Below, in pieces: positions 615 to 13,573 of a stretch of 37,324 bases of DNA (position 1 is the first letter of the stretch; each line of letters begins with the position of its first letter). The notes under the pieces are model-generated. The model made no database searches. It was not told the origin of the DNA and was given only the letters and a program-made list of their open reading frames with translations. Made by a program: the position numbers and the translations under genes. Source of the stretch: a virus. The stretch lies in the IMG/VR virus record IMGVR_UViG_3300035698_009940, positions 1 through 37,324 of that record; one strand, written 5' to 3'.

Positions 615-1409
615 ATGAGCGACAAGTTGCAAGTGACGCGAGATGCTGTGGTGGCCATGTTCCAAGCGTTGGATTTCAAGATGGCCCATAAGTGGAAGTC
701 TGACAGGCTGCTCGGGAAGATCAAGGGCCTTGCCGACATCGTGGATGATTCGGCTGAGTTGCCCGACGCGGAGGATGCCACGCTGATCACGATTCAGGAG
801 GCGATGGAGAACGGAGTGGAGATCGAGATCGTCGATGAGATCGTAGAAGATGCCGGCGATGATCCCGTAGATGAGGTCGAGTGTGTCGAGGAGCCTGGCG
901 ATGAGGCAGCCGATGAAGAGTTGGTGGAGCCTGAGGCTGAGGCTAAGGCCGAGAAGCCTGCCGAGCCCGTCGCCGAGAAGCCGTCGAAGAAAAAGAAGCG
1001 GGGCCGAAAGGCTAAGGCTGCCAAGGTGGTGGAGGAAGAGAAGCCTGCCGAGGCCGAGGTGGAGGCTCCTGAGAAGCCAGTTGCCGAGAAGTCATCGAAG
1101 AAAGCTGCCAAGGCTGCAAAGGATGACAAGGCACGGAAAACGTCCAAGAAAAAGCTTACCGAGAAGGCTGTTTCTGCCATTCCCAAATCGGAATCGGGGC
1201 CGGATTTAGGATCGACGCCAGGTGTTCGGAGTGTGAGGAACAGGAGGTTCGTGGCGGGCATCGTTATTCGAGAGAAGGGATTGGAAGCCGGAATTACGGA
1301 CGAGATGATCAAGCTGGTCGATGAGCAGTACGGTTCGCCGAATCCCAACGTGTCGAAGAAGACGTTGGTCGATGGTTGGCACGTTATCAATGGCTATGTG
1401 AACGGCTGA
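615..1409 (+). CDS. Charged linker protein with conserved C-terminal domain
   Basis: This protein has 264 residues. The ATG at 615 is preceded by a strong AAGGAGAC ribosome site. Three parts are visible: an N-terminal helical segment of about 60 residues (VTRDAVVAMFQAL), a long acidic then Lys/Ala/Pro/Glu-rich low-complexity region (about residues 80-190) with repeated AEKP and KKAAKAAK units, and a compact C-terminal domain with FVAGIVIREKGLEAGITDEM and a final WHVINGYV. The layout resembles a DNA- or protein-tethering phage protein with a flexible linker, but I do not recognise a function. The next gene follows after a 64-nt gap holding a strong hairpin. Confidence 0.8.
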   Translation: MSDKLQVTRDAVVAMFQALDFKMAHKWKSDRLLGKIKGLADIVDDSAELPDAEDATLITIQEAMENGVEIEIVDEIVEDAGDDPVDEVECVEEPGDEAADEELVEPEAEAKAEKPAEPVAEKPSKKKKRGRKAKAAKVVEEEKPAEAEVEAPEKPVAEKSSKKAAKAAKDDKARKTSKKKLTEKAVSAIPKSESGPDLGSTPGVRSVRNRRFVAGIVIREKGLEAGITDEMIKLVDEQYGSPNPNVSKKTLVDGWHVINGYVNG

Positions 1410-1430
1410 AGTTCGTCCGTTAACATATAA

Positions 1431-1459
1431 CCCTGGCAGCTGTTTTGGAGCTGCTAGGG
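1431..1459 (+). promoter_or_regulatory. Strong 11-bp hairpin just upstream of a ribosome binding site
   Basis: CCCTGGCAGCT (1431-1441) pairs with AGCTGCTAGGG (1449-1459) with one G.T pair and a 7-nt loop GTTTTGG. There is no T-run after it, so a classical terminator is unlikely. It ends 3 nt before the GGGAG ribosome site of the radical SAM gene at 1474. It may control translation or stabilise the mRNA end. The loop/stem edge holds GGA, the core of CsrA sites, and this phage encodes a CsrA; that link is inference. Confidence 0.55.
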
Positions 1460-1473
1460 TCGGGAGATTTGAG

Positions 1474-2586
1474 ATGAATCTTGACAACTTGAAGGAAAAG
1501 ATGTTGGCATCGGGTCCGATTTCATTAGAGATGCGGGCGGCGGTGGAATCTCTGGGGAAAGACCGCCGGAGGCCGCTCGGTAGGTTCAATCCCTGGGCGT
1601 GGTGCGTAGAAACGACTCGGGGATGCAACCTTTCCTGTGCATTCTGTCCGACGCGACTCTATCCCAAAGGGGAACGAGTGTTCTTGTCGGACGAGGCTTG
1701 GGGATCGGCTGTTGACATCATAAATGAGTTGATGCCATATAGTCGGTTCCTCATTGCTAATTGGGGCGAGCCGACCCTTCATCCCCGCTTCCTCGAATTG
1801 ATGCAGATGGCCAGGAAGACGGCACCGAACATGACACTGCTTCTTTACACCAATGGTACTCAGATATTGAACGGGAATCTTACATACCCGGAACTGTTCG
1901 CGGCTGGATTGAATGCTGTTTATGTAGATGTATACAGCAATCGGGAAAAACACATTGAACTCGCAAGGAACAGCGGTTGTTTGTGGTGGGAAGAGGGTAA
2001 GCGGCCGAAGAATACCAAGAACTTGTTTGAACGAAAACAGGGGGAGGGGGGTTTTATTCAAATCAGCAGGAATCCCGGCGAGTGGCTTTCGTCGAAAAAC
2101 AATCGTGGAAACGTGATGACATTTCTCAACGATCTCGACTGGGACGCGGCATCAAAGATCGGAATAACTCCCGTGGTGAATCCTCCCCATAGAAGGTGCG
2201 ATCAGCCTGTGAAGTTTCCGACGTTCGTCTGTGACGGTGATTACGTTTTTTGTGGTCAGGATGTCATGAATCATACGACGGGGAAGCTCGGGAATGTAAA
2301 GGACGGGCCGGAAGGTTTCATCAGGTTCTGGCTCGGGCAGTACATGCAGGACACTCGCTCCAAGGTTCATCAGTATTCCGACGGGAGGGCGTCTCACGAG
2401 CACTGTCGTCGCTGTGCCTTCGTGGGAGGAAGGGCAGACGTTCCGATCTGGAGGGCCGGGTTCAGTGAATACTGGGATGGAGAACGATTTGTTCCGCTTC
2501 CATCCTGGAAGAAGATAGAGGCTCCGAACGGTAAAGTCAAGCGGATTGTCAGGAAGTCCGAGCAAGGATTCGGTTTCATAGAATAA
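1474..2586 (+). CDS. Radical SAM enzyme with SPASM-like C-terminal cluster region (1)
   Basis: This protein has 370 residues. A radical SAM CX3CX2C motif sits at C51, C55 and C58 (GCNLSCAFC), so it should bind a 4Fe-4S cluster and cleave S-adenosylmethionine to a 5'-deoxyadenosyl radical. A GE-type motif (NWGEPTLHP) follows, typical of the fold. The C-terminal third holds several cysteines (RRCDQPV, VCDGDYVFCGQDV, HCRRC) arranged like a SPASM/auxiliary cluster region. The substrate is not evident. Its neighbours are a second radical SAM enzyme (next gene, overlapping) and a glycosyltransferase of a DNA base modification type, so chemistry on a modified base or its sugar is the favoured inference. 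Peptide or cofactor modification is the alternative. Confidence 0.85.
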   Translation: MNLDNLKEKMLASGPISLEMRAAVESLGKDRRRPLGRFNPWAWCVETTRGCNLSCAFCPTRLYPKGERVFLSDEAWGSAVDIINELMPYSRFLIANWGEPTLHPRFLELMQMARKTAPNMTLLLYTNGTQILNGNLTYPELFAAGLNAVYVDVYSNREKHIELARNSGCLWWEEGKRPKNTKNLFERKQGEGGFIQISRNPGEWLSSKNNRGNVMTFLNDLDWDAASKIGITPVVNPPHRRCDQPVKFPTFVCDGDYVFCGQDVMNHTTGKLGNVKDGPEGFIRFWLGQYMQDTRSKVHQYSDGRASHEHCRRCAFVGGRADVPIWRAGFSEYWDGERFVPLPSWKKIEAPNGKVKRIVRKSEQGFGFIE

Positions 2587-2606
2587 TGATAAGGGAGAAA
2601 CACGAG

Positions 2607-3806
2607 ATGGACAGAACGACCGAAGTAAACAATCCCGAATGGCTGTCTCCGTCAAAGACAAAGCCGCCAAGGCCGTTCGGAAAGCACACCCCCTGGGTGT
2701 GGTCGGTGGAACTGGTGAAGGGGTGCAATTTGGCCTGCTGGCATTGTGCCGCCCGTGTATCTTCCAAGGAGGGCCTGCGGTACATGACAGAAGAGACGTG
2801 GCGGAGCATGTTTGAGGTGATAAAGGAATGCACTCCGGCCAGGCGGCTTGAATTGGATCACGGAGGAGAACCGTCATTGCATCCCGACCTACTGAAGTTC
2901 ATTCAGATTGCGAGAGAGATAAGTCCGACGACGCAGATACAGATGTTTACGAACGGAGTTGCCCTGACCAAGGGGGCAGTCACACATAAACAGCTGTTCG
3001 ATGCTGGGGTTCATGCAGTTTACGTTGATATGTATGCACCCACCGAGCAGCATGTCGCTCTGGCTTCGGCCGCGGGGGTGGAATGGTACTTGTACAACAA
3101 GCCGGAGATGGGGAGTCCAGATCATAAAAGGAAGGCGCATGTTTATTACAACGATCCGAACATGAAGCTGATCGTCCTTCAGGATCGGCCGGAGAACCGC
3201 ATCAGGTGGAGGAAAGTCAGTAGGATGAGCACGTTTCTCAATCATATAGACTGGAATGCCTCGATGAAGCATGGATTGGTTCCAGTTCGGGAACCGTACA
3301 TCAGGAGGTGTAATACGCCTCAGAAATATGCAGTGGTCAATGTAGACGGAGACTACATATTCTGCTGCACCGATTTGATGTGTGAATCGGCCGGGTTGTT
3401 GGGGAATGTCAAGGACGGTCCAGAAGGATTCAAGGAGTATTGGTTCGGTCGGTTGATGCAGAGTGTTCGACGCCGGTTGATCGACAAGGATCGGGCAGGG
3501 ATTCCATACTGCAGCCGGTGCAACTGTGCGTTCAACAGGTGTGACTTGCTGGGGCTGTGGCCGGACGGTTCATTTGATGAATACTGGGACGGGGAGAGGT
3601 GGACCACCACACCTCCCAGAACGAAGGACGATGAAGTGTTTGCTGATGGTTGGGAGAAGACGGCAGAGGTGATGGCATCGTTACCTTCCAAAGAAGAAGA
3701 GGATGTGTGTGTGCGAGAATCAAAGAAGTTGGTTATTCGGACCACCGAGACCATGAAAAATAAAAAGAGAAGAGGATTTGGGCTCTTGTCCAAGGGAGAC
3801 TGCTGA
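2607..3806 (+). CDS. Radical SAM enzyme with SPASM-like C-terminal cluster region (2)
   Basis: This protein has 399 residues from the ATG at 2607 (AAGGGAGA site upstream); an ATG at 2586 overlapping the previous stop is an alternative. The radical SAM motif GCNLACWHC gives C40, C44 and C47. The C-terminal cysteines (RRCNTP, YIFCCTDLMC, YCSRCNCAFNRC) again suggest auxiliary iron-sulfur clusters. It is clearly a paralogue of the preceding gene: shared are LGNVKDGPEGF, the following aromatic stretch, and an EYWDGER segment near the end. Two diverged copies side by side suggest two successive steps or a heterodimer. The last codons overlap the glycosyltransferase start (ATGG at 3806), so the three genes form one translational unit. 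Confidence 0.85.
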   Translation: MDRTTEVNNPEWLSPSKTKPPRPFGKHTPWVWSVELVKGCNLACWHCAARVSSKEGLRYMTEETWRSMFEVIKECTPARRLELDHGGEPSLHPDLLKFIQIAREISPTTQIQMFTNGVALTKGAVTHKQLFDAGVHAVYVDMYAPTEQHVALASAAGVEWYLYNKPEMGSPDHKRKAHVYYNDPNMKLIVLQDRPENRIRWRKVSRMSTFLNHIDWNASMKHGLVPVREPYIRRCNTPQKYAVVNVDGDYIFCCTDLMCESAGLLGNVKDGPEGFKEYWFGRLMQSVRRRLIDKDRAGIPYCSRCNCAFNRCDLLGLWPDGSFDEYWDGERWTTTPPRTKDDEVFADGWEKTAEVMASLPSKEEEDVCVRESKKLVIRTTETMKNKKRRGFGLLSKGDC

Positions 3807-4915
3807 TGGCGGGATTTGTAGAAAACGAGTCGTCGGACAGTTTCGCACGTTGGAAGGGGATGCCGTCCTTCAATCAGAAGGATCTGTCTCCGCTCCAGTC
3901 GATCTCGGTCCACTTCCGAAACTCGGCAGACAGAGAAGCCTTCGCGAAGTTGATCGACAGGAATCTCACGGACAAGACGCAGTCCGTCTGGTATCCGAGG
4001 GAGGAGATCGGGAGGATGTCGGACAAGCGGTTCGTGGCTAAGCAAACCTTGAATCCTCAGTACCCCGTCTATGTTATCTCCAAGGGTCGCTGGGAGACCC
4101 GGTTGACTAGCAAGTCGTTGGAAGCTATTGGTGTGCCGTATCACATCGTGGTGGAGCCTCAGGAGCGGAAGCAGTATGCGAAGGTGATCGACCCGAAAAA
4201 GATTCTAGTCTTGCCTTTTTCCAATCTTGGACAGGGCTCAATCCCGGCTCGCAACTGGGTTTGGGAGCACTCCGTGGAGCGGGGAGCCAAGCGGCATTGG
4301 ATACTGGACGACAATATCGGATTACCGCTCAAGCAGGGGATGGTTGGATTCTACCGGCTGTACAACAACATCAAGACGCCCGTTCGGTGCGGAAACATCT
4401 TCAGGGCCGCCGAGGACTTCGTCGACAGGTACGAGAACGTTGCCATCTCGGGTTTCAACTACTTCATGTTCGCGAGTCGCAAGTCGCGGATAATTCCCTA
4501 TTATCTCAATACCCGCATCTACTCTTGCATCTTGATTCAGAACGACATCCCATACAGGTGGAGGGGAAGGTACAACGAAGACACCGACCTGTCGATAAGA
4601 GCACTCAAGGACGGTTGGTGCACGGTGCTATTCAACGCGTTCCTTGCATTCAAGCAGCCGACCATGAAGATGAAAGGAGGCAATACAGATAAACTTTATC
4701 AAGGAGACGGTCGGCTGAAGATGGCCAAGTCACTTCAGAAGCAGCACCCGGATATAGTGAAGGTCAGCAGGAAGTGGGGGCGTTGGCAGCATCATGTCAA
4801 CTACAAGCCGTTCAGGAAGAACAGGTTGAAGTTGAGGGAGGATGCAGTGGTGGAGGAAGGGGTCAACGATTATCAGATGTATTTAGAGATAGATGAGAAC
4901 CTAAAAAAATCATAG
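3806..4915 (+). CDS. TET-associated-type glycosyltransferase (TAGT-like)
   Basis: This protein has 369 residues. Residues about 90-200 carry the pattern of phage TAGT glycosyltransferases: YPVYVISKGRW, a conserved VVEPQE, LVLPFSNLGQGSIPARNW, and HWILDDN with the acidic metal/nucleotide-sugar motif near residues 166-168. An RGRYNEDTDLSIR block follows, typical of the acceptor side of GT-A folds. TAGT enzymes have been predicted, and some tested, to glycosylate 5-hydroxymethyl-pyrimidines made by phage TET/JBP dioxygenases. No dioxygenase is in this window. The N-terminal 80 residues (VHFRNSADREAFAKL, SVWYPREE) form a small extra domain found with phage modification and defence-evasion proteins. 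It is coupled to two radical SAM genes upstream. Confidence 0.75.
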   Translation: MAGFVENESSDSFARWKGMPSFNQKDLSPLQSISVHFRNSADREAFAKLIDRNLTDKTQSVWYPREEIGRMSDKRFVAKQTLNPQYPVYVISKGRWETRLTSKSLEAIGVPYHIVVEPQERKQYAKVIDPKKILVLPFSNLGQGSIPARNWVWEHSVERGAKRHWILDDNIGLPLKQGMVGFYRLYNNIKTPVRCGNIFRAAEDFVDRYENVAISGFNYFMFASRKSRIIPYYLNTRIYSCILIQNDIPYRWRGRYNEDTDLSIRALKDGWCTVLFNAFLAFKQPTMKMKGGNTDKLYQGDGRLKMAKSLQKQHPDIVKVSRKWGRWQHHVNYKPFRKNRLKLREDAVVEEGVNDYQMYLEIDENLKKS

Positions 4916-4927
4916 GAGAACTAAGAG

Positions 4928-5956
4928 ATGAAAATTGCAGGAGACGTTCTGGCGAAGCGGCTGTTGGAGGTCGCAGCGGGCCTGGGTGATGACAAGACGG
5001 TGGAGCAGTCCTCCAAGTTTGCCTTCCAAGACGGGCGGGTCATCACGTTCAACGATGAGGTTACTTGCTCGGCCGAGTCCCCGTTCGGCGAAGAGGTGGA
5101 GGGTGTCGTGCCCTCCCGACCCCTGCTCGAACTGCTCGGCAAGCTCAAAGAGGGCAGCAAGATCATTGTGACCAAAAAAGACGACAAGCTGAAACTCCAG
5201 ATCGGAAAGAAGGAACGGGTCCAGATCACGATGGATGCAGAGATCGTCCTGCCACTCGACTCGATTGAGATTCCAGAGGAAGACGACTGGCGGTCGCTGC
5301 CTGACGATTTCATGGAGGCGTTGGGAGTGGTGCTCAAGAGTGCGAGCACCGACGACAACAACTTCCAACTGGCCTGCGTGCATTTCCATCCTGAGTATTT
5401 GGAGGCGTGCGACAACTATCAGCTCCTCCGGTGGGGCATGGAGACGGGTGTTGCTGAGTCATACTTGGTGCGTGGCAAGGCGTTGTCCAAGCTCCTACGA
5501 TCAGGAGCGACGGAGATGGCGGAGACGGCCGCCTGGATTCACTTCCGCAATGAATCATCGACGATCAGCGTGCGGCGTTGGAACGAAGAGTACAGGGCCA
5601 AGGATTCGATCCTGGAGTGCAGTGGTGAGAACGTCGTGCTTCCCGATGGCCTGGCTGAGGTAGCCGCCCGTGCAGCGATATTTAGCGGAGACAATCCGGC
5701 CGACGCAACGGATATGAAGATCGACTTGAAGAAGGGTTTGATGCGGGTGGTAGGTGAGGGGGCGGACGGTCGATATGAGAAGGTGATCGACTTGAAATAC
5801 GATGGCAGCCCCCTGTCGTTTTGCATATCCCCTTCGCTGCTGACCGAGATTACGAGGCGGTCGAGCGAGGGGATGATTGACGGATCGAAGATGAAGATTG
5901 AAACGAAGCAGTTCGAGTACGTCGTTTGCCTAGTTGTTCCGGATGATGAGGATTGA
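4928..5956 (+). CDS. DnaN-like sliding clamp (DNA polymerase processivity factor)
   Basis: This protein has 342 residues. It starts MKIAGDVLAKRLLEVAAGL, has the alternating strand pattern of a beta-clamp (FQDGRVITFNDEV, LLGKLKEGSKI, KLKLQIGKKE) and ends with strand-rich LMRVVGEGADGRYEKVI and FEYVVCLVVPDD. The length is close to bacterial DnaN. The expected role is a ring around DNA tethering the family A polymerase; a clamp loader ATPase is encoded at 17086. The ribosome site is TAGGAGAAC. The assignment rests on overall pattern and context, since clamps have no catalytic motif. Confidence 0.6.
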   Translation: MKIAGDVLAKRLLEVAAGLGDDKTVEQSSKFAFQDGRVITFNDEVTCSAESPFGEEVEGVVPSRPLLELLGKLKEGSKIIVTKKDDKLKLQIGKKERVQITMDAEIVLPLDSIEIPEEDDWRSLPDDFMEALGVVLKSASTDDNNFQLACVHFHPEYLEACDNYQLLRWGMETGVAESYLVRGKALSKLLRSGATEMAETAAWIHFRNESSTISVRRWNEEYRAKDSILECSGENVVLPDGLAEVAARAAIFSGDNPADATDMKIDLKKGLMRVVGEGADGRYEKVIDLKYDGSPLSFCISPSLLTEITRRSSEGMIDGSKMKIETKQFEYVVCLVVPDDED

Positions 5957-6928
5957 ATGAATGAGCTTTGTCTATTTGCCGGAGCGGGTGGAGGATCACT
6001 CGCCAGCAAGCACCTGCTCGGCCACCGAACAGTCTGCTACGTCGAGTGGGAGTCCTACTGCCAAAAAATCCTCCAAGCAAGGATCAAAGACGGGCTGCTC
6101 GACGACGCCCCAATCTGGGACGATGTTAGATCGTTCGATGGAGTGCCCTGGAAGGGATGCGTGGATATCGTCACTGCTGGATTCCCGTGCCAGCCTTTCT
6201 CGGTTGCAGGAAAAGGAAAAGCTGAGGAAGACGAAAGGAACATGTGGCCAGAAACGATCCGTATCATTCGCGAAGTGGGACCCCGATTCTGCCTGTTGGA
6301 AAACGTCCCAGGGCTTCTCAAGTTTGACTATTTCGGCACAATCCTTGGAGACTTGGCAGAGGCAGGGTTTGATGCGAGGTGGAAAGTTATATCGGCTGCC
6401 GATTGTGGAGCACCCCACCTGCGGAAGAGGCTCTGGATTGTGGCTATCAACACCTACCAAAGGTATGTCTGTTCGCTCAGAAAGATTCCGGAGAAAGTCG
6501 CTAACGCCGGCGGAGTTTGTACAGATGTTCCCGACACCCAACGTAGCCGACGCCAGCGGACACGCCCAAGTAGCATGGGACAAAACGCCGGGGCAGACAG
6601 GGGGAACGACATTAGCGGGAGCCGTGATGTTCCCGACGCCACACGGCCTGAGTGCCAATCAAGGGCAGGGGGACGGGGAGTTCGGCAAGGCGATACGGAA
6701 CTGGCCGACACCAAGGGCTCAAATGTCAAGGGACGGAACAGGATTAGAAGACCGGAACAAATGCAACTTGGAGGAAGTGATTGGTGGGCAACTGAACCCG
6801 ACGTGGGTCGAGTGGTTGATGGGGTGGCCTCTCGGGTGGACCGACTTAGAGCCATTGGAAATGGACAAGTTTCAGCAGTGGCTGCAAGGGCATGGATTGA
6901 GTTGAATCCTTTTGATAACGAGCTATAG
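5957..6928 (+). CDS. DNA (cytosine-5) methyltransferase
   Basis: This protein has 323 residues. Motif I is LCLFAGAGGGS at the N-terminus, motif IV is FPCQPFSVAGKG with catalytic Cys near residue 79, motif VI is LLENVPG near 115, motif VIII is AADCGAPHLRKRLWIVA near 150, and motif X is AIGNGQVSAVAARAW near 300. It transfers methyl from SAM to cytosine C5. The target recognition part (about 165-270) is low in recognisable structure and overlaps a second open frame that is itself conserved. The start ATG follows directly on the clamp stop. With the nearby glycosyltransferase and radical SAM genes it probably supplies 5-methylcytosine for hypermodification, but plain protective methylation is equally possible. 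Confidence 0.9.
   Translation: MNELCLFAGAGGGSLASKHLLGHRTVCYVEWESYCQKILQARIKDGLLDDAPIWDDVRSFDGVPWKGCVDIVTAGFPCQPFSVAGKGKAEEDERNMWPETIRIIREVGPRFCLLENVPGLLKFDYFGTILGDLAEAGFDARWKVISAADCGAPHLRKRLWIVAINTYQRYVCSLRKIPEKVANAGGVCTDVPDTQRSRRQRTRPSSMGQNAGADRGNDISGSRDVPDATRPECQSRAGGRGVRQGDTELADTKGSNVKGRNRIRRPEQMQLGGSDWWATEPDVGRVVDGVASRVDRLRAIGNGQVSAVAARAWIELNPFDNEL
5961..6905 (+). CDS. Overlapping-frame protein inside the cytosine methyltransferase gene
   Basis: This second frame of 314 residues lies entirely within the methyltransferase gene, starting 4 nt after it. Its later part resembles stand-alone phage proteins: DPDSACWKTSQ, SLETWQRQGLMRGG, GSGLWLSTPTKG, two PTP-type blocks (FPTPNVADASG, NWPTPRAQM), and the hallmark C-terminus LNPTWVEWLMGWPLGW (about residues 279-294). 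From memory of the family, such blocks appear in proteins annotated near or as cytosine methyltransferases. The function is unknown; a second specificity or partner subunit is a guess. Whether it is translated is not shown by the sequence; its ATG shares the ribosome site of the main gene. Confidence 0.5.
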   Translation: MSFVYLPERVEDHSPASTCSATEQSATSSGSPTAKKSSKQGSKTGCSTTPQSGTMLDRSMECPGRDAWISSLLDSRASLSRLQEKEKLRKTKGTCGQKRSVSFAKWDPDSACWKTSQGFSSLTISAQSLETWQRQGLMRGGKLYRLPIVEHPTCGRGSGLWLSTPTKGMSVRSERFRRKSLTPAEFVQMFPTPNVADASGHAQVAWDKTPGQTGGTTLAGAVMFPTPHGLSANQGQGDGEFGKAIRNWPTPRAQMSRDGTGLEDRNKCNLEEVIGGQLNPTWVEWLMGWPLGWTDLEPLEMDKFQQWLQGHGLS

Positions 6929-6941
6929 GAGAACCTGAAAG

Positions 6942-7133
6942 ATGAAACTCACGTTGTGTATAATCGGTGAGGATTTGGCAGCTATCCGAGGGGTGTTGTC
7001 CGAATTGCTGGCTGAGTTTTCTAATGGGCATGTTGACAGCAATTGTGGTGGGGGATCGTTCGATTATAGTTTTGATGATGGCACCGATTTGTATTTTGAT
7101 GATCCAGAGGCCAAAGTGGTGGACCCAAACTGA
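6942..7133 (+). CDS. Small acidic protein
   Basis: This protein has 63 residues. The ATG is preceded by TAGGAGAAC. The stop overlaps the ATG of the glycosylase-exonuclease gene (TGATG at 7131-7135), so it is translationally coupled. It is rich in Asp, Gly and Ser in its second half (SFDYSFDDGTDLYFDD). I recognise no domain. Confidence 0.6.
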   Translation: MKLTLCIIGEDLAAIRGVLSELLAEFSNGHVDSNCGGGSFDYSFDDGTDLYFDDPEAKVVDPN

Positions 7134-8338
7134 TGCCTTTCTTCGACGAATCAGAATTCAAGACCGTCCCCACCGTGGCCCGTTGCAACGTCTGCGGTGT
7201 CTACCGTGGCTGCAAGACCCCCAAGATGCCGGTGACCGGCGAGGGGAGGAAGGGAGTCTTGATCGTGGCCGAAGCCCCAGGCAGAGAAGAGGATCGGCAG
7301 GGCATCCAGTTGATCGGTCAGAGCGGCCAGTTGCTCCGGAAGATACTAGGGAAAATTGGTGTTGATCTGGATCGGGATTGCTGGAAAACGAACAGCGTGG
7401 TCTGCTGGCCGGGTGAGGGAAACCCTACGCCGTCAAAGAAGCGGATTCAGCAGTGCCGGCCGAACCTCATAAAGACGATCAAGGAACTGCAACCTAAGAC
7501 GATCATCCTGTTGGGTGGGTCGGCAGTCTCTTCTCTGATCGGTTACCTGTGGAATGAGAGCCCTGGCAGCATCTCGCTGTGGGCTGGGTGGAGGATACCC
7601 GACCGAGAATTCAACACTTGGATCTGTCCCACGTTCCATCCTGCCTATCTGCTGCGAAGCAACGGGGACCCGGCACTGCGGTTGTGGTTTGAGCGGCACC
7701 TGAAGGCAGCGTTCAGGAAGAAAGAGCATCCGTGGAAGGTGATTCCGGACTGGCGGAAGGACGTGCGGATTTTGTACGATCCGGGAAAAGTAAAAACGCT
7801 GTTGGAGGAATTGTTGGATTATGGTCCGATAGCTTTCGACTATGAAACGACGATGCTCAAGCCCGATGGACCAGAGGCGAAGGTAGTCAGTTGTGCAGTG
7901 GCGTGGGAGGCATACGACGGGGTGCGGGCAATCTCCTATCTATGGCGTGGTGAGGCTATCAAGGCCACGCAGGAATTGATCCGATCGGAAGTTCCCAAGA
8001 TCGCAGCCAACTTGAAATTCGAGGAACGTTGGACCCGCAAAGAGTTTGGACACGGCGTTCGGAATTGGGCATGGGATACGATGCAGGCTGCTCACGTGCT
8101 GGACAACCGACCGGGGATCACGGGCCTGAAGTTCCAGGCATACGTGAACATGGGCCAGCCCCCCTACGATGACAAGGTGGGGTCTTATCTCAAGTCGGCA
8201 GGGAGTAGCATACCGAACAGGATTCACGAAGTCGATCCGAAAGAGTTGCTGTTGTATGGGGGCCTTGACTCACTTCTCGAATTTCGATTGGCAAAGATTC
8301 AGATGCGGAGGATGGGGACCAGCTTTCAAGGGGCTTAG
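7133..8338 (+). CDS. Fe-S uracil-DNA glycosylase fused to DEDD 3'-5' exonuclease
   Basis: This protein has 401 residues. Residues 1-200 form a family 4/5-like uracil-DNA glycosylase: C18 and C21 (CNVCG), AEAPGREED near 46-54, TNSVVCWPGEGNP with a second Cys pair spaced C-x16-C (a 4Fe-4S arrangement), and HPAYLLR near 168. Residues 230-400 form the proofreading domain of a family A polymerase: FDYETTM (Exo I), AANLKFEERW (Exo II region), and LYGGLDSLLEF (Exo III, Tyr/Asp). The polymerase domain itself is at 10239. The fusion couples uracil removal or sensing to proofreading. The protein ends right after the exonuclease domain, where a promoter element begins. Confidence 0.85.
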   Translation: MPFFDESEFKTVPTVARCNVCGVYRGCKTPKMPVTGEGRKGVLIVAEAPGREEDRQGIQLIGQSGQLLRKILGKIGVDLDRDCWKTNSVVCWPGEGNPTPSKKRIQQCRPNLIKTIKELQPKTIILLGGSAVSSLIGYLWNESPGSISLWAGWRIPDREFNTWICPTFHPAYLLRSNGDPALRLWFERHLKAAFRKKEHPWKVIPDWRKDVRILYDPGKVKTLLEELLDYGPIAFDYETTMLKPDGPEAKVVSCAVAWEAYDGVRAISYLWRGEAIKATQELIRSEVPKIAANLKFEERWTRKEFGHGVRNWAWDTMQAAHVLDNRPGITGLKFQAYVNMGQPPYDDKVGSYLKSAGSSIPNRIHEVDPKELLLYGGLDSLLEFRLAKIQMRRMGTSFQGA

Positions 8339-8340
8339 AA

Positions 8341-8434
8341 CGGCCGAGAAGGGGCCATACGGGGCTTTGAATCGGGATTAGGTATAATCAGGGGGTAAGG
8401 GCTTGGAAGCGAGTAGAGGGGCATTCACGGGGCT
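8341..8434 (+). promoter_or_regulatory. Repeated promoter-leader element, copy 1
   Basis: This is the first of four related elements. Conserved parts are GCCGAGAAGGGGCCAT, a GAATCGGGATTAGG stretch, TATAAT (8383-8388) followed by CAGGGGG, then the leader block TTGGAAGCGAGTAGAGGGGC and ACGGGGCT. It starts three bases after the exonuclease-gene stop and sits between the two halves of the PolA locus. It probably drives the three ORFans at 8454-9371. Confidence 0.8.
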
Positions 8435-8453
8435 GGAGGTATTGGAGAAGAGA

Positions 8454-8732
8454 ATGAGCAAGGATGAAAAGAGAAAATGGCTGAAAGCACGGGGATGGTC
8501 GCGGCATGATCGGGCGTGTGGTCCGAATGCCTCTTGTGAATTGTGGCAACCCCCGTGGAATGGAATTGGATTTGCTCCTGGTTTGGTTTCATTAGATTGG
8601 GCTTTTCGTAAGGAGCATCGGAGGGAAGATGTAAAACTGGTAGCCGATCTGGACTTGAAAAAGGAACGGGAGATAGTCCAGTTTGATCTGACTGAGGATG
8701 AAGCAAGGGCCATGAGAACCCAAATCTGTTGA
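8454..8732 (+). CDS. Hypothetical protein, basic N-terminus
   Basis: This protein has 92 residues; the ATG follows TTGGAGAAGAG. It starts MSKDEKRKWLKARGW and has a central WQPPWNGIGFAPGLVSLDWA and an acidic helical end (DLTEDEARAM). It is the first gene after promoter element copy 1. No family recognised. The frame is also open upstream into the leader (TTG at 8403), but the ATG with its ribosome site is the better start. Confidence 0.6.
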   Translation: MSKDEKRKWLKARGWSRHDRACGPNASCELWQPPWNGIGFAPGLVSLDWAFRKEHRREDVKLVADLDLKKEREIVQFDLTEDEARAMRTQIC

Positions 8733-8743
8733 AAGGAAGAAGC

Positions 8744-9094
8744 ATGAAACCAATTGAATTCCCGGAACAGAACGCGGTGTTTGCGAAGGATCAGCCTGAA
8801 TATCTTCCCCTGCCAGTTTATAAGGTCGTGGGAGATGATCGTGGTCTTGTGATAAGCTGTTGGCAGTTGAAGTGGTGGGAGCGAATCAAGTTGCTGTTCA
8901 CCGGACGGTTGTGGATTCGGCAGCTAACCTTTGATAACCCACTTCAGCCCCAATTGCCTGAAGTGGATCGTCCATTTTTGAATGGCTTGGAGTGGTTCGG
9001 TGCCTCGTTCGATGATTGCAGGCAGCGGAACATATTCAATAAGAAGGCGGCAGATAGAGACTTGGAAAAAGAACGGGAAGCACTGGAGAAGTGA
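8744..9094 (+). CDS. Hypothetical protein with aromatic membrane-like segment
   Basis: This protein has 116 residues; the ATG at 8744 follows GAAAGGAAG. The middle (ISCWQLKWWERIKLLFTGRL) is the kind of amphipathic, aromatic/basic stretch seen in small phage proteins and may contact the membrane; the C-terminus is a charged helix. It resembles short phage proteins that start with a proline-rich strand (LPVYK) and precede replication genes, but I cannot name it. Confidence 0.6.
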   Translation: MKPIEFPEQNAVFAKDQPEYLPLPVYKVVGDDRGLVISCWQLKWWERIKLLFTGRLWIRQLTFDNPLQPQLPEVDRPFLNGLEWFGASFDDCRQRNIFNKKAADRDLEKEREALEK

Positions 9095-9095
9095 A

Positions 9096-9371
9096 ATGGA
9101 AGCTCAATTGCAAGCTAACCTCGAAACGATGATGGGCTGCTTGATCGAAGCCATGCCAGATAGTTTGGTGGAGCGGTGCGAGCGGGCTGAGCAACTCATC
9201 AAACAGGTGAAGCCTTACGGTGGTTTGATGAGTATGCAGGTGCTGGCTGTTGTCGTGGTGGGGTGGGAATCGACGGCACTTTCTGGGGAGAAGGATCAAG
9301 TATTTCTCACCCGGTCTGAAGCCCTGCGGCGGGAAAAAGAAGAATCAGAGAATTCAAGTGCCCCTGATTGA
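9096..9371 (+). CDS. Hypothetical helical protein
   Basis: This protein has 91 residues from the ATG at 9096, one base after the previous stop. It is largely helical (CLIEAMPDSLVERCERAEQL) with a hydrophobic strand (MQVLAVVVVGW). The 3' end overlaps the likely GTG start of the Spo11-like gene by 14 nt, indicating coupling. Function unknown. Confidence 0.5.
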   Translation: MEAQLQANLETMMGCLIEAMPDSLVERCERAEQLIKQVKPYGGLMSMQVLAVVVVGWESTALSGEKDQVFLTRSEALRREKEESENSSAPD

Positions 9372-10242
9372 ATACATCCCGAGACGATTCTCGAAAGCGT
9401 CGCAGGTGTTGATAGCTCATGCGAATGCAATCATAGAAGAGTACGCCGAGCAGGGTTTCGTGATGACCTTGCGGCAGCTCTACTATCAGTTTGTATCCCG
9501 CGACTTGCTTGGCAATACACCGCGAGAATATGATAGATTGGAACGCATAATATCGAATGGGCGGAATGCAGGATTGATCGATTGGGAGGCTATCGAGGAT
9601 CGGACCCGCAATGTACAAAGCAATAGCCATTGGGACGGTGTCTCTGATATTTTGGATGCAGTGGCTCAGCAATTTCGATATGACTTGTGGGAAAATCAGA
9701 GGCATCGCGTCGAGGTGTGGGTTGAGAAAGAGGCACTGTCGGGAGTCTTCGATGCTGTCTGTCGGGAGTTGGATGTTCCGTTGCTGGCCTGCCGTGGCTT
9801 TTTGAGTCAGAGTGAAATGTGGGCAGCGGGAAGGCGTTTCAAGCGGTATGCTGCTGAGATGCAATCGCCTGTTGTAATCCATCTCGGTGACCACGATCCG
9901 AGTGGCATCGATATGACCAGAGACAATTTTGATCGATTGAAATTGTACTCTGAGCGGTATGTGGAGGTGCATAGGATCGCCTTGAACATGGATCAAGTGC
10001 AGTGGTATCAGCCTCCCCCCAACCCTGCCAAAAGCACAGATAGTCGATTCACCGGCTATGTTGAAAAATACGGAGATGAGAGTTGGGAACTAGATGCTTT
10101 GTCACCGGCGGTGCTGGTCAAGTTGGTGCGGGATGCCGTAGCGGATTATCGGGATGAGTATTTGTGGGATGCCGCCGTGAAGGATCAGCAAGAGGCCCGT
10201 GACGATTTGCAACAACTGGCTGACGAAAGGCGACAGCAATGA
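9358..10242 (+). CDS. Spo11/topoisomerase VI subunit A-like Toprim protein
   Basis: This protein has 294 residues from the GTG at 9358 (an upstream in-frame ATG at 9250 would overlap the preceding gene more). TLRQLYYQFVSRDL (about residues 37-50) matches the winged-helix segment that carries the catalytic Tyr in Spo11/TopVIA. Toprim motifs follow: VEVWVEKEAL with the acidic residue near 122-124, and HLGDHDPSGIDM (about 175-186), the metal-binding DxD. Known relatives cleave both DNA strands through a tyrosyl link. No subunit B (GHKL ATPase) is in the window. It overlaps the polymerase gene by 4 nt (ATGA at 10239), tying it to replication. It could make programmed breaks or relax DNA; the activity is inferred. 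Confidence 0.7.
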   Translation: MPLIEYIPRRFSKASQVLIAHANAIIEEYAEQGFVMTLRQLYYQFVSRDLLGNTPREYDRLERIISNGRNAGLIDWEAIEDRTRNVQSNSHWDGVSDILDAVAQQFRYDLWENQRHRVEVWVEKEALSGVFDAVCRELDVPLLACRGFLSQSEMWAAGRRFKRYAAEMQSPVVIHLGDHDPSGIDMTRDNFDRLKLYSERYVEVHRIALNMDQVQWYQPPPNPAKSTDSRFTGYVEKYGDESWELDALSPAVLVKLVRDAVADYRDEYLWDAAVKDQQEARDDLQQLADERRQQ

Positions 10243-11612
10243 TTCCAGTGGACAGAGAAGCTTACCAACTCATGCAGGATGGAGCCGTTGCCTTGGCACA
10301 AGTCGAAGCCACGGGTGTGCGGATCGACGTACCCTACCTGAAACGCACGATCACCAGGGTCGAAAAGAGGATCGAGCAGCAGGAAGAAAAGCTCAAGCAG
10401 GGTGATGTGTTCAAAGTGTGGAAGAAGAAGTTTGGCAGAGAAGCTAATCTAGGTAGTCGGCCACAGTTGGGGCAAGTCCTGTTCAACGAGTTGGGCCACG
10501 AAAGTACAGGCAAGACGAAGACGGGGAGATTCTCCACCGCTGCTGCCGATCTGGAGAAGCTGGATGTCCCATTCGTTAAGCAATTGATCGCCGTCGAGAA
10601 GTTGAAAAAGCTCCGCAGCACCTACTTGCTAGGTGTTCTGCGTGAGACGGTTGATGGGGTCCTGCACCCGTTCTACAACCTCCACCTGGCACGCACGTAC
10701 AGGTCGTCTTCAGATTCCCCCAACTTCCAAAACCTCCCGATTCGTGATCCAAAATTGGCCAAGCTGTTGAGGCGGGCGTTCATTCCGAGAAAGGGTAGGG
10801 TGTTGGTGGAGGTGGATTACGAGAGGGTGGAGGTGAACGTGGGTGCCTGCTACCATTTTGATCCGACGATGATCGACTACATTAACGATCCGTCTACCGA
10901 CATGCACCGCGACGTGGCTATGGAGTGCTTCAAGCTGACGCAGGAACAGATGACCAGCAAGGCCAGGAAGCTCACGAAGAATCAATGCACGTTCCCTGAG
11001 TTCTATGGTTCATATTATCCCAACGTGGCAAAGGGTTTGTGGGATGGGATAGATTCGTTTGGTGCCACCAGAGAGGATGGGATGGGTTTGAAAGAGCACC
11101 TATTGAATCGGGGAATTACTCACTTGGGAGCGTGCAATCCGAAGGTGCCTGCGGTGAGTGGATCGTTCGAGCGGCACATACAAGATTTTGAGCGGCATTT
11201 TTGGGATGTTCGATTCCAGGTCTACGCCCAATGGAAGAAAGACTGGTTTGCAGAATACCAGCGGAAGGGTTGGATGAAGAGCCTGACTGGATTCGTTTTC
11301 CAAGGGGTAATGAAACGCAACGAAGCGGTCAACTACCCGATCCAGGGCTCGGCGTTTCACTGTCTGCTGTGGAGCTTGATACGGGTGGTCAGGTGGCTGA
11401 GAAAATCGAAGATGAAGTCGCGGGTGATCGGCCAGATTCACGACTCGCTGTTGTTGGATGTGGTGAAGGATGAGTTGGATGCCGTGCTGGCAGGGGTGAG
11501 GCGGATCACGTTGGATGAATTGCGGAAGGCGTGGCGGTGGATCGTGGTGCCGTTGGGGATCGACATTGAGGGGTCGGATGTGAACTGGTGGGAGAAAAAG
11601 GAGTTGTCATAA
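10239..11612 (+). CDS. DNA polymerase I family A, polymerase domain
   Basis: This protein has 457 residues. Family A motifs are present: TYRSSSDSPNFQNLP (template/primer loop), motif A VEVDYERVEV near residue 193 with catalytic Asp, motif B RKLTKNQCTFPEFYG near 243 (Lys, Phe and Tyr-Gly kept), and motif C IGQIHDSLLLDV near 399 with catalytic His-Asp. Unusual points are motif A with DYERVEV in place of the common DYSQIEL, and HDS in place of HDE. There is no exonuclease domain; that is encoded at 7133, so PolA is split. The N-terminus (AYQLMQDGAVALAQVEATG) corresponds to the linker that directly follows the exonuclease in intact enzymes. Confidence 0.92.
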   Translation: MIPVDREAYQLMQDGAVALAQVEATGVRIDVPYLKRTITRVEKRIEQQEEKLKQGDVFKVWKKKFGREANLGSRPQLGQVLFNELGHESTGKTKTGRFSTAAADLEKLDVPFVKQLIAVEKLKKLRSTYLLGVLRETVDGVLHPFYNLHLARTYRSSSDSPNFQNLPIRDPKLAKLLRRAFIPRKGRVLVEVDYERVEVNVGACYHFDPTMIDYINDPSTDMHRDVAMECFKLTQEQMTSKARKLTKNQCTFPEFYGSYYPNVAKGLWDGIDSFGATREDGMGLKEHLLNRGITHLGACNPKVPAVSGSFERHIQDFERHFWDVRFQVYAQWKKDWFAEYQRKGWMKSLTGFVFQGVMKRNEAVNYPIQGSAFHCLLWSLIRVVRWLRKSKMKSRVIGQIHDSLLLDVVKDELDAVLAGVRRITLDELRKAWRWIVVPLGIDIEGSDVNWWEKKELS

Positions 11613-11767
11613 TGGAAGATGAGTTAAAGATTGACTGCGATGATGATGCAATGGACATAATGGAAAATGTGAACGACTGTTTGAAGGAACGGGGTTTGCT
11701 TTTCGAGTGGAATGAGACAGAGTACGATGGATATGTGATTTATCTTCTGAGGGAGTTGGGGGCATGA
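11612..11767 (+). CDS. Small acidic protein
   Basis: This 51-residue frame starts MEDELKIDCDDDAMDIMEN and ends LLRELGA. The ATG overlaps the polymerase stop (TAATG) and its stop overlaps the methyltransferase ATG (ATGA), so it fits the tight operon perfectly. No family recognised; the acidic composition resembles small phage inhibitor or adaptor proteins, but that is not evidence of function. Confidence 0.5.
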   Translation: MEDELKIDCDDDAMDIMENVNDCLKERGLLFEWNETEYDGYVIYLLRELGA

Positions 11768-11871
11768 AGAAGCACAAGCGTCACCGTTTGTTCAACAAGG
11801 ATTGCAGAGTGGTCTTGAATAGGATGAAGGAGGGGGTTATCGACTCTGTGATTTGTGATCCTCCGTATGGG

Positions 11872-12678
11872 TTATCTGATCCATCTTCGCAACACAAATT
11901 CAACAGCGTTTTTCGCAGATTGGTTGATGTCGTATTCCCAAATCTCAATGAGTTCGATCCTGAGCTTGCTAAGTATATCGACCTTGCGGGCATACCGCTC
12001 CAATGTTCTAATTTGAGCAGGCGAAAGATTGGTATGATCGTAGAATCTGGTATCAGCATGCCAGAATGTGCCGTTGACTTCGACAGCGACTCGGTGCTTT
12101 GGGATGTACATGTCGAGGCAGGCAGAGAATCTTCCTGTGTTAGGTTCTCTGATGTAGTATTGTCTCGTAAATTCAAAACCGAGCCTGGTCATTTCCTCGG
12201 AGACTATGTTCTCGATTTTAGAGATTCGGTTGATTTTTCCATTGGCAATGCTATTGGCAGATGCGGCACTCAGTTTGGCCTTGGTAGCTTCAGTGTGCCC
12301 ATAGTTGTTACGCCTGCGGCGGGTCGCTGCTGCCCTCTTTCCGCTTTCCTTTTGTGCAATCTTCCCGGCTTCAGTGAAAACATAGGGCTTCGTACAAATT
12401 CGGGGAGTATGCCCAGCGGTTCGACCAGCGTACATACAAGCAGCACAGCAGTAGAGGGCTTTGTGCTTACTCTTGATGGTACTGGGGCTTCTGGTGAACT
12501 CCGATCCGCAATTGGCACAAGAGACTGTGATTTGGTTTCTCAACTTAGCTGCACGAAACTTGTAAGAACACGCACGGGAGCAAGTGGTCTGCCTCCCGAA
12601 TTTAAGCCTTGTCGAATCAGCGTAATAATTGATACCGCAGACGGGGCAACAGATGCTTACTTTCATGTTTGGCTCCAT
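11872..12678 (-). CDS. Homing endonuclease, zinc-ribbon plus Vsr-like/EDxHD nuclease
   Basis: This protein has 268 residues, encoded antisense within the methyltransferase gene. Two zinc-ribbon-like Cys pairs at the N-terminus (CCPVCGINYY...CSRACSYKF and CANCGSEF...CCAACMYAG) are followed by a linker with KAKLSAASANS (NUMOD-like). The C-terminal nuclease of the Vsr/EDxHD type carries SKIENIVSEEM, DMYIPKHRVAVEVNGTFWH and LIEIWEYDI. Such enzymes nick or cut at conserved sites to spread their own gene. Its C-terminal codons run up to the DPPYGL motif of the host gene, the usual kind of conserved target. A minus-strand TATAAT precedes it. There is no room for a group I intron core, so it looks free-standing. 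Confidence 0.8.
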   Translation of the reverse strand: MEPNMKVSICCPVCGINYYADSTRLKFGRQTTCSRACSYKFRAAKLRNQITVSCANCGSEFTRSPSTIKSKHKALYCCAACMYAGRTAGHTPRICTKPYVFTEAGKIAQKESGKRAAATRRRRNNYGHTEATKAKLSAASANSIANGKINRISKIENIVSEEMTRLGFEFTRQYYIREPNTGRFSACLDMYIPKHRVAVEVNGTFWHADTRFYDHTNLSPAQIRTLERYARKVDILSKLRIELIEIWEYDINQSAKNAVEFVLRRWIR

Positions 12679-12705
12679 ATTTCAGAATATAAAAAGGCTT
12701 GTTCT

Positions 12706-12711
12706 ATTATA
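12706..12711 (-). promoter_or_regulatory. Minus-strand extended -10 promoter for the endonuclease gene
   Basis: On the minus strand the sequence reads TGGTATAATAGAAC, a perfect TATAAT with an extended-10 TGN, 28 nt upstream of the ATG at 12678. It lies at the edge of the insertion beside the methyltransferase sequence, so the element appears to carry its own promoter. Confidence 0.55.
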
Positions 12712-13195
12712 CCATCCACAGGCTTCATGGGAAAGGATTGGGATTATGGTGTGCCGGGTGTAGAATTCTGGACGCAGATAATGAGGGTCTGTAAGCCAGG
12801 AGCAATGCTGCTGGCGTTCGGGGGCACGAGAACCTACCACCGTCTGGCGTGTGCTATTGAGGACGCAGGCTGGGAAATTCGTGATTGCGTGATGTGGATT
12901 TACGGCAGCGGCTTCCCAAAATCGCTGGACATTTCCAAGGCAATCGACAAGGCGGCGGGTGTGGAGAGGGAACAAATAAAGCACAAACCTCGGGCTATTA
13001 CGTCTGGTACAATGTCTGGATCATGTGATTCCCGGCCTTGGATTGATCAAAGTCGAAAGGTTGGTTACCATGAATGTGATGGACCAGATCCTGCCACCGA
13101 AGCGGCCCAACTCTGGGACGGCTGGGGGACTTCTCTAAAACCAGCATTTGAGCCGATCATCGTCGCCATGAAGCCACTGGACAAAGAACCGTGGT

Positions 13196-13573
13196 CTATT
13201 GAACTGACCCCAGAACTCTTAGACGAGTGGGAAGCGATTGAAGCCGATCATGTGTAATTGCCATTTCCAAAGTCGAATGACACGGGGCACAAAGGGCTAC
13301 CAAGTTCTTCAGGATGTTAGCCTCGTCCTGGTCATCGTAGTTGCGGCGTGGATCAATGTGGTGAACGTCGAGACGGCGACCGCTGGGGCTTCTCAAAACA
13401 CCACAATTACGGTGTGTCATGTTGGCTCGTTTCCATGCCACGTGATAATCACGGCTGCAAAATACTGTGTCGGTTTTTCTCGCTTGTATCCGATAGTGGT
13501 GTCGTTGAAAGGAACGCTTGCACATGGAACAGATTAAAGTTGCTTTCGACTTTTCCAAGGGAATACCTATCAT
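13196..13573 (-). CDS. HNH homing endonuclease, antisense in the same methyltransferase gene
   Basis: This protein has 125 residues from the ATG at 13573; longer starts up to 13684 would run into methyltransferase sequence. CSMCKRSFQRHHYRIQARK with CSRDYHVAWKR forms a zinc-ribbon DNA-binding part. RRLDVHHIDPRRNYDDQDEA, NILKNLVALCAPCHSTLE is a classical HNH core with His-His, Asn and a CxxC. It interrupts the methyltransferase between MKPLD (13184) and FVKNALEHG (13638). A minus-strand TATAAT lies at 13628-13623. It is the second independent insertion of a different nuclease family into one gene. Confidence 0.8.
   Translation of the reverse strand: MIGIPLEKSKATLICSMCKRSFQRHHYRIQARKTDTVFCSRDYHVAWKRANMTHRNCGVLRSPSGRRLDVHHIDPRRNYDDQDEANILKNLVALCAPCHSTLEMAITHDRLQSLPTRLRVLGSVQ

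Follow-up and report, generated by a model that had tools for sequence, protein, structure and literature searches.

Radical SAM genes recur beside a TAGT glycosyltransferase gene in phages and suggest a route to unusual sugars on phage DNA

Introduction

Glycosylation of phage DNA constitutes one layer in the arms race against restriction, CRISPR, and DNA glycosylases. Solitary TAGT glycosyltransferases, the function of which is unknown, were counted in 288 of 753 phages in a paper from 2026 (PMC13216743). In the window analyzed here, a linear fragment of 37,324 nucleotides (37.3 kb) that represents part of a phage genome, a TAGT gene is preceded by 2 genes for radical SAM (rSAM) enzymes, which raises the question of what these enzymes modify. 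The original prediction was a cassette for the hypermodification of cytosine, in which the rSAM enzymes might take the place of a TET/JBP dioxygenase.

Organization of the locus

Table 1. Features of the locus, with positions in the window
Feature	Positions	Strand	Description
rSAM1	1474..2586	+	370 aa; Twitch-domain radical SAM, BtrN-like; PF04055 E 4.9e-11
rSAM2	2586..3806	+	406 aa; Twitch-domain radical SAM; PF04055 E 2.2e-11, PF13186 E 4.9e-8
TAGT glycosyltransferase	3806..4915	+	369 aa; PF20691 E 1.1e-42, phrog_842 E 5.3e-43; GT-A fold
TAGT N-terminal domain, ~63 residues (residues ~14-76)	3845..4033	+	
Sliding clamp (DNA polymerase processivity factor)	4928..5956	+	phrog_947 E 6.7e-35
C5-cytosine DNA methyltransferase (C5-MTase)	5957..6928	+	DNA_methylase PF00145 E 1.1e-37

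The genes for rSAM1, rSAM2, and TAGT form an operon, in which the stop and start codons overlap by 1 nucleotide at each junction (TAATG and TGATG), and the 2 rSAM proteins are paralogues with 35% sequence identity. The open reading frames, the Pfam matches, and the overlaps all agree with the predicted arrangement of 2 overlapping rSAM paralogues directly before the TAGT gene. The C5-MTase gene was also located as predicted, one gene beyond the TAGT gene, and the intervening gene encodes the DNA polymerase clamp. The clamp gene adjoins the rSAM or TAGT genes in several relatives as well, and the cassette is frequently flanked by helicase, clamp, and polymerase genes.

Recurrence of the rSAM-TAGT module

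Of the 44 rSAM loci in IMG/VR, 34 encoded the TAGT core at most 1.7 kb from the rSAM genes and in the same orientation, while 2 more loci contained adjacent, divergent TAGTs (PF20691 E-values of 1e-34 and 1e-31). Together, these linkages cover 30 of the 33 nonredundant rSAM types in IMG/VR, and the rSAM-TAGT pair is a recurrent module. One additional record contained both genes far apart, and a single phage type (L108/L109/L112) contained rSAM genes with no TAGT detectable within up to 16.6 kb. Long open reading frames in L089 and L105 with the appearance of TAGT-rSAM fusions were found to be out-of-frame extensions when rechecked with tblastn, and the apparent absence of TAGT from L105, L113, and L088 was due to masking by other open reading frames, according to the same type of recheck. 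A seemingly short TAGT upstream of the rSAM genes was a ParB-like protein that contained the TAGT N-terminal domain only, and it was therefore left out of the final linkage count.

Conversely, 40 of the 50 TAGT-bearing records did not contain rSAM genes. When mapped onto the TAGT tree, the rSAM label changed about 12 times, as compared with 24 times when shuffled, with at least 3 changes forced by the starred branches. Thus, the rSAM module has been gained or lost several times on the TAGT tree. It represents a recurring partner for part of the solitary TAGTs counted previously (PMC13216743). A search for bacterial relatives in 84,980 species genomes gave just partial matches, at about 23% to 33%, among the matches listed, and no rSAM relative was found in the GenBank phages searched. 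Nor did a literature search identify a paper that joins radical SAM enzymes to TAGT.

The adjacency of TAGT in 30 of the 33 rSAM types excludes a chance neighborhood, which argues against the explanation that the rSAM enzymes are maturases of peptides (RiPPs) that happen to be encoded beside TAGT. RiPP maturases are frequent among the SPASM/Twitch rSAM enzymes (PMC9012708), but the short open reading frames (20 to 80 aa) near the rSAM genes were conserved only in close pairs or as antisense of coding genes, the 1-nucleotide overlaps leave no room between the genes, and the rSAM N-terminus is neither long nor ordered enough to serve as a recognition domain. Action on a peptide encoded nearby, which had been put forward as an outcome that would speak against the original prediction, was checked for, and a precursor peptide was not conserved near the rSAM loci. 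We consider this explanation highly improbable.

Sequence motifs and predicted fold of the rSAM proteins

The [4Fe-4S]-AdoMet site is formed by C51, C55, and C58 in rSAM1 and by C47, C51, and C54 in rSAM2, while the auxiliary-cluster cysteines are C242, C260, C311, and C314 in rSAM1 and C242, C260, C309, and C312 in rSAM2. The CxxxCxxC motif of the AdoMet cluster was invariant across 30 rSAM homologs, as were all 7 cysteines of rSAM1 in the family alignment A1. In rSAM2, C309 was kept in at least 90% of the homologs, and the remaining 3 auxiliary cysteines were invariant. The family displays a four-cysteine Twitch pattern (C-x17-C ... C-x2-C) that aligned to BtrN. The SPASM profile (PF13186) matched rSAM2 only, not rSAM1, and of the seven-cysteine SPASM motif (CX9-15GX4C...CX2CX5CX3C...C), CX12GX4C and CX2C were present, while CX5CX3C and the last cysteine were absent. 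The proteins had been labeled as SPASM-like; since the family retains only 4 auxiliary cysteines, the iron-sulfur domain is instead of the four-cysteine Twitch type.

The nearest PDB fold to the AF2 model of rSAM2 (pLDDT 86.7) was that of BtrN (4m7t; Foldseek E-value of 6e-14), and SpeY was also among the closest structures. A comparison of the rSAM family profile with BtrN gave an E-value of 6e-18, with both CxxxCxxC and the 4 Twitch cysteines aligned. Hence, the phage enzymes share the fold and the CxxxCxxC motif with the dehydrogenases BtrN (butirosin) and SpeY (spectinomycin), which were the best profile and structure matches, and the 4 Twitch cysteines with BtrN, whereas the sequence identity is merely 18% to 19% and the phage genes are located beside a DNA glycosyltransferase gene rather than in an antibiotic cluster. 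BtrN oxidizes 2-deoxy-scyllo-inosamine, and its auxiliary cluster is of the four-cysteine type (PMC9012708). Since function within the Twitch/SPASM subfamily does not follow from sequence networks (PMC6231123), the function of the rSAM enzymes cannot be read from similarity alone, but the sequence and model comparisons point to a resemblance to BtrN-type dehydrogenases of sugar-like alcohols, with a putative oxidation activity.

DNA as the likely target of TAGT

The TAGT protein scored 146.7 bits against PF20691, for which the curated cutoff is 27.5, and matched GT-A folds in Foldseek. It contains the motifs DDN at position 168 and NEDTD at position 257, and residues D168, D169, E258, and D259 were invariant in 38 TAGT homologs. 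The N-terminal domain is found in relatives as a separate upstream open reading frame or as the C-terminus of a ParB-like protein. TAGT relatives were fused to a family A DNA polymerase in 3 lineages (L036, L021, L080, L009), with the fusion in L036 additionally carrying uracil-DNA-glycosylase (UDG) and exonuclease, and other relatives were fused to ParB_N domains (in ParB-like proteins) or UDG domains. These fusions, along with the frequent location of the cassette among replication genes, make DNA the likely target, and we are fairly confident that DNA serves as the substrate of the TAGT cassette.

Alternatively, the glycan built by TAGT and the rSAM enzymes could be carried by a surface polymer or by a protein of the phage or the host, instead of by DNA. 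Polysaccharides are common substrates of GT-A/GT2-type enzymes and of rSAM sugar enzymes, and some of the cassettes are located near terminase or structural genes. However, the fusions with DNA polymerase A, ParB, and UDG domains, as well as the activity on DNA of the PF20691 enzymes of T2 and T6 (PMC13216743), make this alternative improbable.

Search for enzymes that make the acceptor

Family searches of the records, which are fragments, identified TET/JBP in 0 of the 45 rSAM records and 0 of the 50 TAGT records, while phage Nigel was detected as a positive control. Thymidylate synthase/dCMP hydroxymethylase (PF00303) was also found in 0 of the 45 rSAM and 0 of the 50 TAGT records, with T4 td and gp42 recovered as positive controls. 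Neither TET/JBP nor thymidylate synthase was seen among the best 25 of the 46 Pfam families matched in the window, or by family search of a twin contig, G001, that is identical over 18.7 kb. Among the best 25 of the 81 Pfam families in 109 neighboring proteins, there was no recurring oxygenase, and the matches listed represented replication, packaging, and structural families. The lack of a visible dioxygenase, as first noted, was thus borne out in the window Pfam matches listed and extends to the 45 rSAM records. None of the 45 rSAM records yielded an enzyme that would equip a base with a group for glycosylation, which leaves the acceptor unexplained and counts against the pathway proposed below.

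In the phage TET/JBP-TAGT pathway, which Iyer et al. in 2013 and Burke et al. in 2021 are said to have described, 5mC is reportedly converted to 5hmC and then to glycosyl-5hmC. The window phage has a TAGT-family GT-A glycosyltransferase in common with this pathway; a C5-MTase gene is also located nearby in the window, but C5-MTase is not conserved (2 of the 45 rSAM records). The window phage differs in that the partners are rSAM enzymes and in that TET/JBP was not found among the window Pfam matches listed or in the 45 rSAM records. The T2/T6 beta-glucosyl-HMC alpha-glucosyltransferase has PF20691, PHROG 842, and the GT-A fold in common with TAGT (PMC13216743), whereas the T-even enzyme acts after alpha-GT, attaching the second sugar to HMC that dCMP hydroxymethylase has made, and PF00303 was not found in the records searched here.

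A sugar as the candidate substrate of the rSAM enzymes

The slot beside TAGT was occupied by other genes in 2 relatives without rSAM, namely a UDP-glucuronate decarboxylase gene in L052 (PDB 4gll, E-value of 5e-100) and an FkbM methyltransferase gene in L007 (TIGR01444, E-value of 3e-17), the predicted products of which make or decorate sugars. That most TAGT relatives do not contain rSAM genes, that sugar enzymes are found in the slot, and that the rSAM proteins resemble BtrN together suggest that the rSAM enzymes tailor a sugar rather than substitute for TET. On balance, we lean slightly toward a sugar rather than the base as the rSAM substrate.

The original prediction had allowed for the opposite, with the rSAM enzymes making the acceptor on the base, where they would oxidize the 5-methyl group of 5mC or T or insert carbon there, before glycosylation by TAGT. 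This would supply the acceptor-forming step that is otherwise missing, and it is in line with the absence of TET/JBP and PF00303 enzymes from the 45 rSAM records in searches with positive controls, and with the C5-MTase gene located 2 genes downstream in the window phage. However, C5-MTase was identified in just 2 of the 45 rSAM records, and the closest structures to the rSAM enzymes act on sugar-like alcohols. Moreover, the 40 TAGT records without rSAM were likewise without TET and hydroxymethylase, and the acceptor of the TAGT clade is therefore not dependent on rSAM. A replacement of TET thus retains the absence of TET and hydroxymethylase in its favor, but is weakened by the rSAM-less records, the likeness to BtrN, and the sugar genes in the slot, and we regard it as unlikely. 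Thymidine hypermodification in phages such as M6 also includes radical SAM enzymes within a DNA modification pathway, but these pathways start from 5hmdU and contain kinases and PLP or glycine enzymes, and they are not known to contain TAGT.

Proposed pathway and its significance

The reading that we prefer, with about even confidence, is a cassette for glyco-hypermodification of phage DNA, in which TAGT glycosylates DNA and the pair of BtrN-like rSAM enzymes tailors the sugar. TAGT, together with the replication machinery, would use a nucleotide sugar as the donor to glycosylate a base, or a base-linked group, of the phage DNA, and the 2 Twitch rSAM enzymes would modify the sugar while it is still part of the nucleotide donor or in the glycan once linked to DNA. 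A 5'-deoxyadenosyl radical would abstract hydrogen at a hydroxyl-bearing carbon of the sugar, after which the auxiliary cluster could accept a second electron to yield a ketone; alternatively, the carbon center could be epimerized. The rSAM reaction would accordingly be a dehydrogenation or an epimerization, and the product an unusual DNA-linked sugar that may block restriction, CRISPR, or DNA-glycosylase defenses. In a bolder and rather doubtful version, the replisome-linked TAGT would glycosylate the base without a hydroxyl made by TET or hydroxymethylase, directly or through new acceptor chemistry, and the rSAM enzymes would remodel the DNA sugar to keto, epimeric, or deoxy forms unseen in DNA.

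The pairing in about 30 distinct phage types suggests an undescribed route to unusual sugars on phage DNA. The analysis also shows fusions of TAGT with DNA polymerase and, in the records searched, a lack of the enzymes that usually make the acceptor. The question of the acceptor is now testable, as cultured Vibrio phages carry solitary TAGTs. In the isolates 1.124.O and 1.076.O, a solitary TAGT was accompanied by neither PF00303 nor TET. If true, radical SAM tailoring of sugars on DNA would represent new DNA chemistry and a possible tool.

The C5-MTase gene

One of the 2 rSAM records with a C5-MTase (PF00145) was the window's own twin, and the family was identified in 4 of the 50 TAGT records. 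The C5-MTase is a neighbor and no conserved component of the rSAM-TAGT module. The cytosine part of the original prediction is therefore unsupported, given these counts and the failure to find TET/JBP or thymidylate synthase/dCMP hydroxymethylase in the 45 rSAM records, while the rSAM-TAGT cassette, which is likely DNA-modifying and lacks a visible dioxygenase, stands. It was also noted that a second reading frame of the C5-MTase gene is open and conserved.

Gene content and layout of the cassette

The window is a linear IMG/VR fragment of 37.3 kb from a tailed phage, in which replication and recombination genes lead up to the terminase found at its right-hand end. The cassette genes (table) overlap by 1 nt at each of the rSAM1/rSAM2 and rSAM2/TAGT junctions, where rSAM denotes the radical SAM genes and TAGT the PF20691 glycosyltransferase gene. 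The genes and their layout were as originally predicted, and the gene that had been left unnamed before the methyltransferase encodes a sliding clamp. The SPASM label was not retained: the auxiliary cysteines conserved in the rSAMs, arranged as C-x17-C and C-x2-C, number 4 and are those of the Twitch type rather than the 7 of SPASM, as these motifs are defined in PMC6231123.

Coordinates of features in the window and in related loci (L-numbers)
Locus	Feature	Position	Strand	Remark
Window	Radical SAM gene 1	1474-2586		
Window	Radical SAM gene 2	2586-3806		
Window	TAGT gene	3806-4915		
Window	Sliding clamp	4928-5956		Directly after TAGT
Window	C5-cytosine methyltransferase	5957-6928	+	Directly after sliding clamp
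Window	+1 frame of methyltransferase	5961-6905	+	
Window	N6/N4 methyltransferase, apparently split	11764-14354		Parts 11764-13257 and 13518-14354
Window	Endonuclease-like ORF	11872-12678	-	268 aa
L104	Second rSAM	1315-2712		
L092	N6/N4 methyltransferase	3929-5194		
L092	PAPS-reductase-like gene	6917-8239		
L036	TAGT-UDG-exonuclease-polymerase	7030-10218		
L021	TAGT-polymerase	9899-13543		
L080	TAGT-polymerase	4184-7816		
L009	TAGT-polymerase	5450-8725		
L011	TAGT with UDG domain	7622-9265		
L090	TAGT N-domain	9261-9980		
L117	TAGT N-domain	9303-9929		
L010	TAGT N-domain	9599-11119		

Recurrence of the rSAM-TAGT pair

A family of rSAM loci was recovered from IMG/VR by a profile search; no relatives of either rSAM were found among GenBank phages. 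With the TAGT catalytic core as the only query, a TAGT gene was located on the same strand within 1.7 kb of the rSAM gene in 34 of 44 loci, and a divergent PF20691 gene adjoined the rSAM in 2 further loci. When rSAM regions were collapsed at 90% DNA identity, 30 of the 33 non-redundant types contained the adjacent pair. The exceptions were a truncated contig (L085), a record with a TAGT gene far from the rSAM (L110), and one phage type with an rSAM and no TAGT (L108, L109, L112). Chance pairing is excluded because TAGT is rare, with close relatives matched in 282 of the 2.9 million contigs in the collection. When the presence of an rSAM was mapped onto a tree built from 110 TAGT cores, this label required about 12 changes versus 24 when shuffled, and the well-supported branches force at least 3 changes. 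Given these label changes, the pair is a module that was gained or lost several times rather than inherited once.

No literature pairing radical SAM enzymes with TAGT was found, though the search covered neither Iyer 2013 nor Burke 2021, the 2 papers of greatest relevance. The cassette is a probable variant of phage DNA glyco-hypermodification, and the pairing is seemingly new, with an earlier mention being possible.

Cytosine modification and the missing oxygenase

The assignment of the cassette to cytosine was not supported, the one observation in its favor being the methyltransferase neighbor in a single phage. Among the 45 rSAM records, PF00145 was identified in 2, including an identical twin of the window, and among the 50 TAGT records it was identified in 4. 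Neither TET/JBP nor thymidylate synthase/dCMP hydroxymethylase was detected in any of these 45 and 50 records. As controls, PF12851 recovered a TET-like protein of Mycobacterium phage Nigel (E 4e-8, though short of Pfam's own cut-off), and PF00303 recovered T4 td and gp42. Many of the searched records are fragments, so that a single absence is weak, but a consistent absence carries weight when it spans about 90 records with lengths up to 93 kb. All 3 enzyme types lie outside the rSAM-TAGT module.

The absence of TET/JBP fits the earlier suggestion that the rSAMs take over the role of TET. However, 40 of the 50 TAGT records contain no rSAM, and their acceptor therefore does not need one, which argues against such a replacement, although not decisively.

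Likely chemistry of the rSAMs and the acceptor

The AlphaFold model of rSAM2 (pLDDT 86.7) was closest in structure to BtrN, followed by SpeY, both of which are Twitch radical SAM dehydrogenases of aminoglycoside/aminocyclitol antibiotic pathways. The rSAM family profile matched BtrN (E 6e-18) and aligned both the AdoMet-cluster cysteines and the Twitch cysteines with those of BtrN. BtrN oxidizes an aminocyclitol alcohol by 2 electrons via a four-cysteine auxiliary cluster (PMC9012708). Since similarity within the Twitch/SPASM subfamily does not settle function (PMC6231123), the reaction of the window rSAMs is one that we infer from sequence and structural model.

In TAGT loci that lack an rSAM, the neighboring slot may carry a UDP-glucuronate decarboxylase, an FkbM methyltransferase or a class I methyltransferase. 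Between its BtrN-like rSAM and TAGT, L104 carries another rSAM of a different kind, for which weak DesII/BlsE-type matches were obtained. Taken with the BtrN-like rSAMs, these neighbors indicate that the theme common to the TAGT-slot genes is probably sugar supply or tailoring.

No enzyme making the hydroxyl that a TAGT would require was found. The cultured Vibrio phages 1.124.O and 1.076.O (MG592499 and MG592452) contain a solitary TAGT and neither PF00303 (thymidylate synthase/HMase) nor TET; they share the acceptor gap and offer the easiest experimental route to the acceptor.

DNA as the probable TAGT target

The PF20691 enzymes of phages T2 and T6 act on DNA (PMC13216743). In L036, TAGT is fused in frame to UDG, exonuclease and family-A DNA polymerase domains, and no GenBank phage record covered at least 80% of this architecture. 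In-frame fusions of TAGT to family-A polymerase were also identified in L021/L080 and L009, and the polymerase fusions occupy 3 separate places on the TAGT tree. Further relatives are fused to a ParB_N or UDG-like domain. A C-terminal UDG-superfamily domain was noted on the TAGTs of L011, L003 and L004 (tested against Pfam in L011), where it perhaps reads or protects modified bases. The N-domain of TAGT is about 60 residues long, and in about 50 loci it is also encoded by an upstream ORF of its own or forms the C-terminus of a ParB-like protein, a distribution that suggests a shared adaptor; the table lists the regions concerned in L090, L117 and L010.

Methyltransferase genes

The +1 frame of the C5-methyltransferase gene is open over 314 of 323 codons, a length matched by synonymous shuffles in 3 of 1,000 draws, and matches another methyltransferase family, phrog_1008 (E 2e-30). 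Long open stretches are also present in the +1 frame in Acinetobacter phage ABMM1 and Paenibacillus phage Tadhana, to which the window frame aligned with scores of 302 (shuffle maximum 136) and 171 (shuffle maximum 68), respectively; in Tadhana, both nested frames are annotated as methyltransferases. The open frame and its similarity beyond shuffles suggest that the gene may be dual-coded, yielding an overprinted second protein or a frameshift product.

The 2 parts of the apparently split N6/N4 DNA methyltransferase in the window correspond to successive parts of phrog_67, and the first is overlapped by the endonuclease-like ORF. In L092, the N6/N4-methyltransferase and PAPS-reductase-like genes are located upstream of the rSAM/TAGT pair, and the 2 proteins resemble one another, as well as a ParB-like neighbor, in their N-terminal region.
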